Source: Vulcanisaeta distributa (GTDB lineage Archaea; Thermoproteota; Thermoprotei; Thermoproteales; Thermocladiaceae). From it: 6,624 bases of DNA. The position numbers and the translations under genes are program-made. The notes under the pieces were generated by a model, which made no database searches, was not told where the DNA came from, and saw only the letters and a program-made list of their open reading frames with translations. Numbering within the stretch: the first letter of the stretch is position 1; each line of letters begins with the position of its first letter. The DNA lies in NCBI GenBank assembly GCA_002506645.1, contig DAXY01000123.1, positions 13,196-19,819 on the forward strand, given 5' to 3'. Positions 1,816-6,624 of the stretch are shown in pieces.

Positions 1816-1827
1816 CTTATTTTATTA
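1816..1827 (+). terminator. T-rich candidate terminator after the deaminase gene
   Basis: CTTATTTTATTA follows the deaminase stop by about ten bases, and archaeal terminators are often T-rich without a hairpin. It reaches the last codon of the opposite Zn-ribbon gene. The call rests on base composition only. Confidence 0.3.
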
Positions 1828-2037
1828 TGGACCTTCAAAACCACACACAGGGCACTTGTATGGGTTACCCGTCCTCCTACAGTGCTCGCACCTCCATATC
1901 TCAGCCTTACCACAGTTTGGGCATAGGAAGTGGGTCGCCCTCTCGTATGGTTTAATTGGCTTGCCGCATGAGGTGCATATTGGCACCGTTGGTCCATGGA
2001 GTACTGGCCTTGGTCTCTCAACCCTAGGCAACGCCAT
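1825..2037 (-). CDS. Small zinc-ribbon protein, four CPxCG-like motifs (COG2888/HVO_2753-type)
   Basis: This 70-residue protein has four knuckles: C21-C24 (CTSCG), C39-C42 (CPNCG), C50-C53 (CEHCR) and C62-C65 (CPVCG). They are suited to binding two zinc ions. The order and spacing match the archaeal family annotated as Zn-ribbon RNA-binding proteins with a role in translation (COG2888), whose Haloferax member HVO_2753 is a two-zinc protein. The biochemical role in this family is not firmly known, and RNA or protein binding is inferred from the fold. A basic, proline-rich tail of about 20 residues precedes the first knuckle and is a little longer than in typical members. The ATG lies about 28 bases downstream of a minus-strand TATA box, so it is likely leaderless. 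Its 3' end faces the deaminase gene with 19 bases between their stops. Confidence 0.85.
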
Positions 2038-3701: not shown

Positions 3702-4331
3702 TCAACGCCTACCCAGGGACTCAAGGAGCCTATTAATTACTATCCTCCTAACGAACTCCTCACGCTCATCCTCATCCAGCTTAAGCCTAACAAACCTCGC
3801 GCTCTCGATTATCCTGGGCAGTAATACGTTATCTATGGCGTTGACCATCCTCTGGTACTCCCTAACCCTAGCCAGTAGTGTGTAGAATAGGCTCTCGAGG
3901 TTCATCATCTCCGAGATTATGTTGAAATTGCTGTAAATCCCGTACAGGGCGCTATCGAGCTCAGGTGGTACCGCGAAGATTCCGTAGTTTGGGCTGGAGA
4001 CGCCTCTAAACTCAAGGCCCCTGAACTTGAGCCCCTCCATGACTATGTCCACGAACTCGGCATCAACCGACGGCTTCACGACCTCACTCAGCTTTCCATA
4101 ATCCTCAATACTCATCTTCGAAATTGCGGCCCTGAGCATCAGCGATGCCCTGCCTAACTCCTCATACACGCTCTTCCTAAGGCCCTCTAGCTTGGGTATT
4201 ATCGCCCTGATCCTCTGTATCGTCGCGTTCCTCGCATCCTCAACCGTCTTCTTAATGCCCCTATAAAGCCTCTCCTGATTCCTAAGTCTCAATAGTGTTA
4301 GCCTTGATGGTATCGGCTTCTCGAAGGCCAC
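3702..4331 (-). CDS. atpD: V/A-type ATP synthase subunit D
   Basis: Subunit D is the central rotor shaft of the archaeal A1Ao ATP synthase. It turns inside the A3B3 head and couples membrane ion flow to ATP synthesis. The 209 residues match the family's usual length of about 200-220. The N-terminus IPSRLTLLRLRNQERLYRGIKK corresponds to the family's PTRxxLxxLKxxLxxAxxGxxLLK stretch. The C-terminal helix EYQRMVNAIDNVLLPRIIESARFVRLKLDEDERE (about residues 160-193) closely follows the conserved NALExxxIPRLxxTIxFIxxxLDExERE pattern. Both ends are coiled-coil helices, with a beta-rich part near 105-125. The usual KRD segment after the first helix is weakly conserved (KTVEDARNA). It starts at a GTG about 26 bases from an A/T-rich box, so it is likely leaderless. 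No other ATPase subunit is nearby, which suggests dispersed ATPase genes. Confidence 0.88.
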   Translation of the reverse strand: MAFEKPIPSRLTLLRLRNQERLYRGIKKTVEDARNATIQRIRAIIPKLEGLRKSVYEELGRASLMLRAAISKMSIEDYGKLSEVVKPSVDAEFVDIVMEGLKFRGLEFRGVSSPNYGIFAVPPELDSALYGIYSNFNIISEMMNLESLFYTLLARVREYQRMVNAIDNVLLPRIIESARFVRLKLDEDEREEFVRRIVINRLLESLGRR

Positions 4332-4391: not shown

Positions 4392-5192
4392 ATGAGTAGG
4401 GTTGGCCAGGCCGAGGCCTGGAGGAGGGTTAGGAACGTGCTTGAGATGAGTGATTTGGTACTTGAGGTTATTGATTCTAGGGATCCCGTGGAGACCAGGA
4501 ATAGGAGGGTTGAGGAGTTGTTGAGTAAGTTGGGTAAGCCGTTGATAATAGTTATAAATAAGGCCGACCTCGTGCCCATCGAGGTTCTTAAGGAGTGGAA
4601 AGAATACCTCGAGCGTGAGCACCCCACGGTATTCATAAGCGCGAAGAACAGGCTGGGTACTAGGAAATTGATCGTTAGTATTAAATTGCATGCACCGAGA
4701 CTGCCCGTAAGGGTCTCCGTGGTTGGTTACCCAAACGTGGGTAAGTCAACAATAATTAATTACCTGAAGGGCAGGCACGTGGCTGAGACCAGCCCAATAC
4801 CTGGCTGGACAATCGGCGAGCAGGTGGTTAGAGCTAAGCAATGGCTCATGGTGATTGACACACCTGGCGTAATACCGCCGGAGGAGGTTAATGACGAGGC
4901 GCTTCTCGTCATTAAGGGCGCCATAGACCCATCCAAGCTCGAGGACCCCGTCCCACCGGCGGTAAAGTTAATAATGAGGGTTAAGTCCCTCAACCCTAAG
5001 GCGTTTATGGATAGGTACGGTGTCGATGCGGAGGACCCAATGGAACTCCTGGAATTAATTGGCAGGAGGAGGGGGCTACTATTGAAGGGAGGTAAGGTTA
5101 ACATTAGGGAGGCAGCCATAGCAGTGATTAGGGACTGGATCCTCGGCAAGTTAACCTATTACTATAGGCCTGGGGTGATTGGTAATGCCTAA
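4392..5192 (+). CDS. Circularly permuted GTPase, YlqF/RbgA–Lsg1–Nog2 type
   Basis: The G motifs come in permuted order: G4 NKAD (residues 56-59), G5 SAK (83-85), G1 GYPNVGKST (112-120), G2 PGWT (137-140) and G3 DTPG (156-159). An early DSRDP (28-32) is another hallmark of this family. Known members (RbgA, Lsg1, Nog2, Nug1) assist large ribosomal subunit assembly. Archaeal members are presumed to do the same, so the role here is inferred. The C-terminal 100 residues are helical, and residues 224-235 (GRRRGLLLKGGK) are basic, as expected for an RNA-contacting part. G2 has Trp where most members have Thr or Tyr (PGTT, PGYT). At 266 residues it is a compact member. It overlaps the next gene by eight bases, so the two are probably co-translated. 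The start at ATG 4392 is backed by GAGGT. Confidence 0.88.
   Translation: MSRVGQAEAWRRVRNVLEMSDLVLEVIDSRDPVETRNRRVEELLSKLGKPLIIVINKADLVPIEVLKEWKEYLEREHPTVFISAKNRLGTRKLIVSIKLHAPRLPVRVSVVGYPNVGKSTIINYLKGRHVAETSPIPGWTIGEQVVRAKQWLMVIDTPGVIPPEEVNDEALLVIKGAIDPSKLEDPVPPAVKLIMRVKSLNPKAFMDRYGVDAEDPMELLELIGRRRGLLLKGGKVNIREAAIAVIRDWILGKLTYYYRPGVIGNA
5174..5179 (+). promoter_or_regulatory. Internal Shine-Dalgarno GGTGAT for the primase-like gene
   Basis: GGTGAT lies within the last codons of the GTPase gene, five bases before the ATG at 5185. It selects that ATG over the TTG at 5179, which overlaps the motif itself. Confidence 0.65.
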
Positions 5193-6084
5193 GAGACTTA
5201 CGCCCATGGTGCTAAAGCCCCCCGTTAGGCCCCTTAAGTACTATGACATTGTTGGCGATTTAATGATTAACTTCCTAACGAATAGGAGGGTAGCCATTAT
5301 TAAGCAGGTAAATGATGCGGCGACATTAATGACCAGGGTTAGGCATGAGGATGGGAGTAAACTACCAATTATTATTAATAATAAGGATGAGTTGATTAGG
5401 TACGTCAAGGCCGGTGGTATCGACTTCATGGCCTCCGTAAGCGCTGCGTTGTCTAAGGATATCGATATTGCAATAATAGACGTTAAGGGCGGTAGGAGGG
5501 TTTGGATGTTTGATAGGGGTTTGGAGCTCATGGACCTGGTGGTTACGGCAGTGCGCGCGGTCTTTGAGTACGTTGGTTTGGTAAGTAATGCCGTAGTATT
5601 TGACGGAATGAATGGGTTTAAGGTGATTGCATCATTATCGAGGGAGGTCAGTAGTGAGGAGATGAAGGCCTTCACAAATCTAGTGGGTGAGGTCGTGAAT
5701 AGGAGTTTGAAGTCTTTCGATCTATTTCAAGCATACGGCAACGATATAATAATTGGGGGCAACACAATGCTCAAGGTTAGGATGTACAGGGTACCACTTT
5801 CGCTACACTGGTCAACGAAGCTATCGGCAATACCTGTTGCTAGGGTTTACGACTTCCTAACCATCCATGCCGACCCCTCAAACGTGATTAAGCACGTGGA
5901 AACGATTAGGAAGTTACTCGAACCACTGCTCGTGAGGAACCCCGTGGACTCCCTCACCGACGTAGTAAATAGGTGGGTGAATAATGATTACGAATTAATT
6001 TATTACATTAAGGGTGCTATTAGAAGTAGAATTAAACATGGCGATGGCAATACGAGATTAGAAATTGATAGAGAAAACCTTTAA
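5185..6084 (+). CDS. Primase/LigD-polymerase (AEP) superfamily-like protein, apparently catalytically inactive
   Basis: I read this 299-residue protein as a distant member of the archaeo-eukaryotic primase superfamily (PriS, LigD polymerase). RVPLSLHWSTKLSAIPV (202-218) matches the RxPxSLHxKTGLxxxPV signature of small primase subunits. IDIAIIDVKGG (93-103) aligns with PDRLVFDLDPG of LigD, and FDGMNGFKV (139-147) with TSGGKGLHV. In these alignments the second metal-binding Asp is K101 and the motif II His is K146; D99 is kept, and D187 might be the third acid. DELIRYVKAGGIDFMASVS (68-86) also resembles the LigD region before motif I. It would therefore bind nucleic acid or a partner rather than polymerise. 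There are no cysteines and no Zn motif. It is coupled to the GTPase by an 8-base overlap, which hints at RNA or ribosome work. The fold assignment rests on motifs by eye. An unrelated archaeal family remains possible. Confidence 0.5.
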   Translation: MPKRLTPMVLKPPVRPLKYYDIVGDLMINFLTNRRVAIIKQVNDAATLMTRVRHEDGSKLPIIINNKDELIRYVKAGGIDFMASVSAALSKDIDIAIIDVKGGRRVWMFDRGLELMDLVVTAVRAVFEYVGLVSNAVVFDGMNGFKVIASLSREVSSEEMKAFTNLVGEVVNRSLKSFDLFQAYGNDIIIGGNTMLKVRMYRVPLSLHWSTKLSAIPVARVYDFLTIHADPSNVIKHVETIRKLLEPLLVRNPVDSLTDVVNRWVNNDYELIYYIKGAIRSRIKHGDGNTRLEIDRENL

Positions 6085-6103: not shown

Positions 6104-6109
6104 GGTGAT
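6104..6109 (+). promoter_or_regulatory. Shine-Dalgarno GGTGAT for the last gene
   Basis: GGTGAT ends four bases before the ATG at 6114. It would be used on read-through messages from the GTPase operon. A transcript started from the TATA box at 6079-6086 would largely lack it. Confidence 0.5.
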
Positions 6110-6113
6110 TACA

Positions 6114-6624
6114 ATGAGGAATGTGATAATAGTATTCATAGTAATTGGCATAATAATACTCATAATGTCAAATATAAGGGTTGCATTACCAATAACCAAC
6201 GCCACAACGCCAAATTTTGACGAAATCATCAACGTAACACCTGGACTAAGGCTAATAATAAGCGACAAAAATGGTTCACTAACATTAATACCAATAAGGG
6301 GTTATTCAATGTTTATAGATACTATTGATTACTTATCGCCAATATTTGTCTTTGTTGGAATAATAATCTCAATAGTATTACTAATAATGAGGGGTAAACA
6401 GAGCATTGACGTCTCAGACCCACTATTCTTTGGCATAATCCTAATGCTTATTGTAGCCCTCGCCTTTGCACTACCCATACCAATACAGGTATACGTAGGT
6501 GGGGAGTCGACCACGCAATCAATGCTCATTGGCGTCAACGCCTACGTAGGGTTCTCATCAATAACCTACCTAATAAGCACGGTATTACTCATAATTAGTA
6601 CTTGGCTCTACAGCGGGGGGATGA
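6114..6624 (+). CDS. Four-helix membrane protein, unknown function, 3' partial
   Basis: The frame is open from the ATG at 6114 to the window's end (170 residues, no stop). Hydrophobic helices are at about 4-18, 74-92, 104-122 and 146-166. The 50-residue loop after helix 1 carries three sequons (N29, N40, N53), so it is probably outside the cell, with the MRGKQ loop (92-96) inside by the positive-inside rule. Helix 1 could alternatively be a cleaved signal peptide, given the ALP at 24-26. Isoleucine codons are mostly ATA. I recognise no family and assign no function. It follows the primase-like gene by 29 bases and has both a TATA box and a Shine-Dalgarno, so it may be transcribed alone or with its neighbours. 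Confidence 0.75.
   Translation, partial: MRNVIIVFIVIGIIILIMSNIRVALPITNATTPNFDEIINVTPGLRLIISDKNGSLTLIPIRGYSMFIDTIDYLSPIFVFVGIIISIVLLIMRGKQSIDVSDPLFFGIILMLIVALAFALPIPIQVYVGGESTTQSMLIGVNAYVGFSSITYLISTVLLIISTWLYSGGM

Follow-up and report, generated by a model that had tools for sequence, protein, structure and literature searches.

An archaeo-eukaryotic primase (AEP)-fold protein with an exchanged catalytic motif set, encoded beside a YAG GTPase gene in Vulcanisaeta and related archaea

Based on the analysis reported here, we suggest, with a probability of about 0.68, that the 299-residue protein encoded at positions 5185 to 6084 of a 6,624-nucleotide stretch of Vulcanisaeta distributa DNA (contig DAXY01000123.1; the whole stretch is called the window) is a LigD-type pseudoenzyme of the archaeo-eukaryotic primase (AEP) superfamily, and that its rebuilt, invariant cleft holds a phosphate-bearing ligand without extending it. 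The protein is a member of what we call the K family, i.e. AEP-fold proteins that share a motif set with lysines at positions 101 and 146. The parts of this proposal differ in strength. We are confident that the protein has no primase or polymerase activity, we consider a specific ligand-binding cleft likely, we lean towards nucleic acid as the ligand, and we regard a part in ribosome assembly or in the handling of rRNA as doubtful. AEPs are known as primases and as end-joining and CRISPR polymerases; a fixed branch in which the whole catalytic set has been exchanged suggests that the fold is also usable for non-polymerase tasks. The features of the gene are the following:

5185..6084, forward strand: LigD-type AEP-fold protein without the catalytic motif set (putative pseudo-primase), 299 amino acids (aa)
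5476..5490, forward strand: motif I region IDVKG, residues 98-102; D99 retained, second Asp replaced by K101
5599..5622, forward strand: motif II region FDGMNGFK, residues 139-146; S replaced by D140, R/K by N143, H/Q by K146
5755..5775, forward strand: motif III region GGNTMLK, residues 191-197; G191 in place of the catalytic Asp (the family has G or S here)
5788..5820, forward strand: RVPLSLHWSTK, residues 202-212; RxPxSLH retained
5947..6051, forward strand: C-terminal helices 255-265 and 270-289 of the structure model, with invariant Y273 and K276

A first-pass annotation of the window had pointed out K101, K146 and the RxPxSLH segment, all of which the sequence bears out, and the non-catalytic motif set proves to be fixed in the K family. 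In a joint alignment of 173 rows, 44 are K-type (43 proteins, because P0001 is the window protein with a later start) and 129 are others. In place of D-x-D/E, motif I has D99 and K101 (44/44 K-type rows); in place of S-G-x-x-G-x-H (with Q last in some AEPs), motif II reads D-G-x-N-G-x-K, with K146 in 44/44 and D140 in 43 (N in one); and the motif III Asp is replaced by G in 34 rows and S in nine, with a gap in one. Among the other 129 rows, position 101 is D in 125 (118 distinct sequences, 22 of them classical LigD-Pol, the LigD polymerase domain), E in one and a gap in three; P0044 and P0045, both gapped here, are K family fragments, and P0138 and P0139 are short. Position 146 is Q in 101 of these rows, H in 26, K in one (the fragment P0045) and a gap in one, and position 191 is D in 127 and G in two, both of them K family fragments. 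No row of the alignment shows a mixed state; thus, the catalytic set was exchanged whole, without intermediates. In 32 non-redundant members of the K family, ten positions are invariant and hold a residue other than the one that dominates (>70%) among 51 relatives (G77, K101, N143, K146, N193, T194, K197, W209, S210 and K212), and D140 and G/S191 come close to the same behavior. N193, T194 and K197 are new invariant residues of the motif III region, while W209, S210 and K212 are typical of the family, K212 being R in one member. In the genomes, the motif II and III strings are present in 23/23 K family loci and the motif I pattern is clean in 21 (another frame was printed for L023 and nothing for L030).

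Sequence searches of the PDB returned no significant match (best E 0.52; in a second search 0.026, to an oxidoreductase subunit), and it was for this reason that a fold comparison was needed. The structure model has an AEP core that can be aligned to solved AEPs, which places the protein in the superfamily by fold, and its closest folds are LigD-Pol structures, some of them solved with DNA breaks, rather than PriS. Residues 6-251 align to M. tuberculosis LigD-Pol, with the C-terminal helices outside the aligned stretch. The AEP assignment of the first-pass annotation therefore holds: the core is there, the motif positions are conserved and the SLH segment is placed as in primases.

The profile searches agree in direction. 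The window protein matches PF21686 (LigD_Prim-Pol) with 21.2 bits (E 2.3e-4), below the curated cut-off of 27.4, and 18 of 29 K family members match it at E <= 1. PF01896 (PriS) matches neither the window protein at E <= 10 nor the 29 members at E <= 1, a null result to be read with the HMMER filters in mind, which discard most matches above E ~0.1. In profile-profile comparisons, the K family aligns to its catalytic relatives with E 5.5e-27, to LigD-Pol with 0.0043 and to PriS with 0.047, and three of the catalytic relatives score 71-73 bits to PF21686; thus, the K family is closer to PF21686 proteins than to PriS. Protein searches yielded 32 proteins, the window's own included, in a first round and 45 in a profile search (7998 candidates sharing most words scored), none of them with a precomputed Pfam domain; the window protein is 81% identical to P0004 of Vulcanisaeta distributa. 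In the tree, which is unrooted and carries a program warning of possible false grouping between the long branches of PriS and LigD, the K family is set apart from all other sequences, PriS included, by a branch with a long stem (2.02) and support 100/100. The neighbor of the K family is a relative from genome G018 (support 85/73), followed by other relatives (85/82).

These catalytic relatives can be delimited from genome searches. Among 81 genomes of the class, 26 have a match to the family profile, of which 23 are K family and three (G018, G010 and G011) are divergent and carry the full catalytic set: DMD or DLD, SGSRGFH or SGSRGFQ, L(L/I)DWSSMK and RAPFSxH. Across 398 genomes of the phylum, 38 match at E <= 1e-8, namely 21 known K family genomes and 17 weaker matches, all 17 catalytic by motif and including the same three. 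PF21686 matches 51 of these 398 genomes, 39 over the cut-off, with classical LigD-Pols and catalytic relatives among them (loci are given for 30 matches). A profile seeded with the K family and its relatives collected 99 proteins at E <= 1e-8 (7994 candidates scored); of the few that are named, the K family members come from Caldivirga and Thermocladium, and the relatives from Methanosuratincola, Methanomethylicaceae, Bathyarchaeia, Thermoprotei, Methanocellales and one source labelled Geobacterales. A set of catalytic LigD-like AEPs (L044, L045, L086-L093 and L121-L127) carries Gln at the position of the motif II His (SGSRGxQ); the fully translated ones are ~370-380 aa long with a ~90-aa N-terminal stretch, the winged-helix matches in P0047 are weak, and their source names, where given, are DNA primase or LigD. 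The close catalytic relatives and the K family form a before/after pair for probing the new residues. The pairing of a K family AEP with a GTPase gene is confined to hot-spring archaea of the Vulcanisaeta/Caldivirga/Thermocladium group and does not extend to Thermoproteales at large: genomes G063-G081, inferred to be Thermoproteaceae, have no K family AEP. None of 13 pattern-matching stretches of viral contigs encodes a relative. No paper joining Vulcanisaeta, Caldivirga and primase was found in a search that left subscription papers mostly outside, and among the matches listed, titles and abstracts on inactive AEPs or paralogues describe no such family.

The exchanged cleft is under constraint. 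Mean conservation is 0.80 in 46 motif columns that we chose and 0.49 in the other columns, and 19 of 29 invariant positions fall in motif columns. The AEP gene is under purifying selection, with ratios of non-synonymous to synonymous change (pN/pS) of 0.17-0.25 in six comparisons with Vulcanisaeta loci; those of the neighboring GTPase gene are 0.06-0.17. We conclude that the cleft is kept for a purpose. Decay to a pseudogene is ruled out by the invariance and these pN/pS values.

In human primase, according to PMC4434180, D109 and D111 bind metals, D306 is possibly a partial ligand, and the triphosphate is held by S160, R162-163, H166 and K318, with a water-mediated contact to H324. By motif spacing, D109, D111, D306 and S160 would correspond to D99, K101, G191 and D140, and R163, H166, K318 and H324 to N143, K146, R202 and H208. 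On this correspondence, two of the three metal acids and two phosphate contacts would have been lost, and R202 and H208 retained. The lysines new to the cleft are K101, K146, K197 and K212, and because the swap is balanced in charge, we suspect that ammonium groups of lysine take the place of the metal ions. In the model that we propose, a metal-free network would replace the two-metal site, the ammonium groups of K101 and K146 neutralizing D99 and D140, and the cleft, lined by invariant K101, K146, K197, R202 and H208 and near-invariant K212, would still hold a phosphate-bearing ligand without extending it; the end or a strand of a nucleic acid is the most likely one. Because nearly all catalytic residues are swapped and a GTPase gene is adjacent, the K family probably became a binding protein rather than a polymerase. 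More tentatively, the ligand may be RNA (rRNA or a precursor) rather than DNA, because in most hosts the AEP and a GTPase of large-subunit assembly are probably translated from one transcript.

The same residues could be read as a new active site. If so, a nucleotide or the end of a nucleic acid would undergo some other reaction in the rebuilt pocket (D99, K101, D140, K146, N193, T194, H208 and K212); a single metal at D99/D140 might take part, for example, or a lysine might serve as nucleophile or acid. At about ten positions in or near the former active site, the family has settled on new residues, most of them polar, although its outermost members are only ~30% identical; one would expect this of an active site more than of a dead scaffold. 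However, only one of the three metal-binding acids is left, none of the window genes scanned points to a reaction, and we know of no AEP with such a different reaction; we therefore hold this alternative to be unlikely.

The GTPase gene lies immediately upstream, with the following features:

4392..5192, forward strand: circularly permuted RbgA/YlqF-type GTPase, archaeal YAG subfamily, 266 aa
5174..5192, forward strand: coupling region with GGTGAT, a 5-nucleotide (nt) spacer and ATG at 5185; 8-nt overlap with the GTPase stop

In its translation, the GTPase motifs are circularly permuted (NKAD, then GYPNVGKST, then DTPG), and it matches the YlqF model with E 2.8e-43 and 148.3 bits, below the model cut-off of 208.2. 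The archaeal branch of this type has been named YAG (YRG archaeal GTPase); it has at most one gene per archaeal proteome, YjeQ carriers excepted, and the family is used as a ribosome biogenesis marker (PMC5224878). The two genes are side by side on the same strand in 20/20 genomes that have both, i.e. in 20 of the 23 K family genomes. In 15 of these 20 pairs the AEP start overlaps the GTPase stop, with start codons picked by us among candidates: by 8 nt in seven Vulcanisaeta loci (L004, L006, L007, L053-L055 and L057), by 4 nt in L010 and L058, and by 23-44 nt in L009, L021 and L049-L052. We read the GGTGAT upstream of the AEP start as Shine-Dalgarno-like. GTPase or AEP frames are broken in the drafts L001, L002, L005 and L011, as also in L006, probably through sequencing errors rather than gene decay.

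Several observations weigh against our proposal. Three Caldivirga genomes, G005 (locus L008), G046 (L056, on a single contig of 2.08 Mb) and G047 (L062), keep the AEP and have no YAG GTPase at E <= 1e-20, the single weak match in G005 (5e-5) lying in a 688-aa frame; in a fourth, G006, the GTPase adjoins the AEP. These three genomes speak against an obligatory shared function of AEP and GTPase, and the link to the ribosome is a hint that they weaken. In L003 of Vulcanisaeta, a 6-nt gap takes the place of the overlap. Within the cleft, two residues by which catalytic AEPs hold the triphosphate are replaced, S by an acid (D140) and R by a neutral residue (N143). The loss of these two contacts speaks against simple phosphate binding and complicates the earlier idea that the two lysines mark a phosphate-binding site where the metals used to sit. 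The isoelectric points of the eight relatives shown of 51 are 8.1-9.1, and high values are common in hyperthermophiles. In the tree, support for joining the K family to its nearest catalytic relative is weak. Finally, the archaeal polymerase PolB2 (Dpo2) was also called inactivated from sequence, and very weak activities have been reported for one member (PMC4104785); inactivation called from sequence is thus no proof. What stands of the proposed GTPase coupling is the pairing wherever both genes occur. Given this adjacency, a connection of a primase fold with ribosome assembly can be tested directly, and the GTPase-less Caldivirga offer a natural control. A bolder version, in which the metal-dependent polymerase site was converted to one that has no metal (or a single one) and a new chemistry or specificity, and that acts with the YAG GTPase on RNA ends in large-subunit assembly, i.e. 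an AEP dedicated to ribosome biogenesis, seems to us improbable.

The pairing could also mean that the protein works through its surface, for instance with the YAG GTPase as partner, the cleft being shut by salt bridges for heat stability. An acid-base swap would balance charge, and the gene overlap and the C-terminal helices with their two invariant residues fit such a scaffold. We give it little credence, however, because the invariant residues concentrate in the motif columns and 3 of 23 genomes retain the AEP without the GTPase.

A non-catalytic subunit that aids PriS/PriL or binds DNA breaks as LigD-Pol does would agree with the closest folds and with the canonical PriS, which scores over the cut-off as a separate gene in 8/8 relatives' genomes tested (motif II and RxPxSLH both readable in five), a check that the first-pass annotation had called for. 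Of seven other window genes that were scanned, the five that match Pfam include no primase, ligase or Ku gene, the neighbors at other loci being only partly named, and the constant neighbor is a ribosome-type GTPase. A part in DNA replication or end joining is therefore hard to favor, and the role of primase accessory subunit raised earlier finds no direct support. A very slow or unusual polymerase, for which one could cite the retained D99, Gln for the motif II His in PolpTN2 (PMC5862659) and in most relatives here, and the PolB2 precedent (PMC4104785), is highly improbable given Lys for the second motif I Asp in 44/44 rows and Gly or Ser for the motif III Asp in all 43 rows showing the position.

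Near the GTPase gene lies a gene for V/A-type ATP synthase subunit D (3702-4331, reverse strand; PF01813), 54% identical in L049 (4776-5402) and with look-alike open reading frames, found by eye, in L102 (2611-3213), L105 (2336-2941) and L106 (854-1450); because it is near the GTPase in AEP-less genomes too, this neighborhood is older. Downstream of the AEP, a membrane protein without Pfam match (6105-6623, forward strand) is kept in Vulcanisaeta loci. Had the AEP gene entered between the GTPase gene and a conserved membrane-protein gene, this protein should resemble those that follow the GTPase in other loci. It shows no match to those of L106 and L105 (BLASTP E 0.19 with L106; hhalign probability 0.15% with both); with that of L049, BLASTP finds nothing and hhalign gives a probability of 91.7% against the single sequence. 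At 1825-2037 (reverse strand), a 70-aa open reading frame with four CxxC pairs resembles an archaeal zinc-ribbon protein.

Among known systems, the catalytic LigD-like AEPs of Methanosuratincola/Methanomethylicaceae and other archaea (~290-400 aa) are nearest to the K family by sequence and tree, and all three scanned exceed the PF21686 cut-off. The two groups have YY, R34, D80, F139 and RxPxSxH in common; however, the relatives retain DxD, SGSRGxH/Q and the motif III Asp, which the K family lost, and those of ~370-380 aa have the extra N-terminal stretch. In the three neighborhoods of relatives that were read, there is no GTPase: G010 and G011 lack the gene and G018 has it on another contig. 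Compared with the LigD polymerase domain (M. tuberculosis, P. aeruginosa and Methanocella) and Prim-PolC, the K family lost the catalytic triad, and the window genes scanned include neither the ligase domain nor the ligase/Ku gene of a LigD non-homologous end-joining system; PriS, in turn, is a different gene in the same genomes. The YAG GTPase is far more widespread (64 of the 81 genomes of the class at E <= 1e-20, compared with 23 for the K family). PolB2 offers a parallel in that it, too, is a conserved paralogue of polymerases whose catalytic residues have been replaced, and its predicted operon has an unclear role (PMC4104785); however, PolB2 is a family B polymerase, patchy in archaea and linked to RadA-like genes, while the K family combines an AEP fold with a GTPase neighbor.
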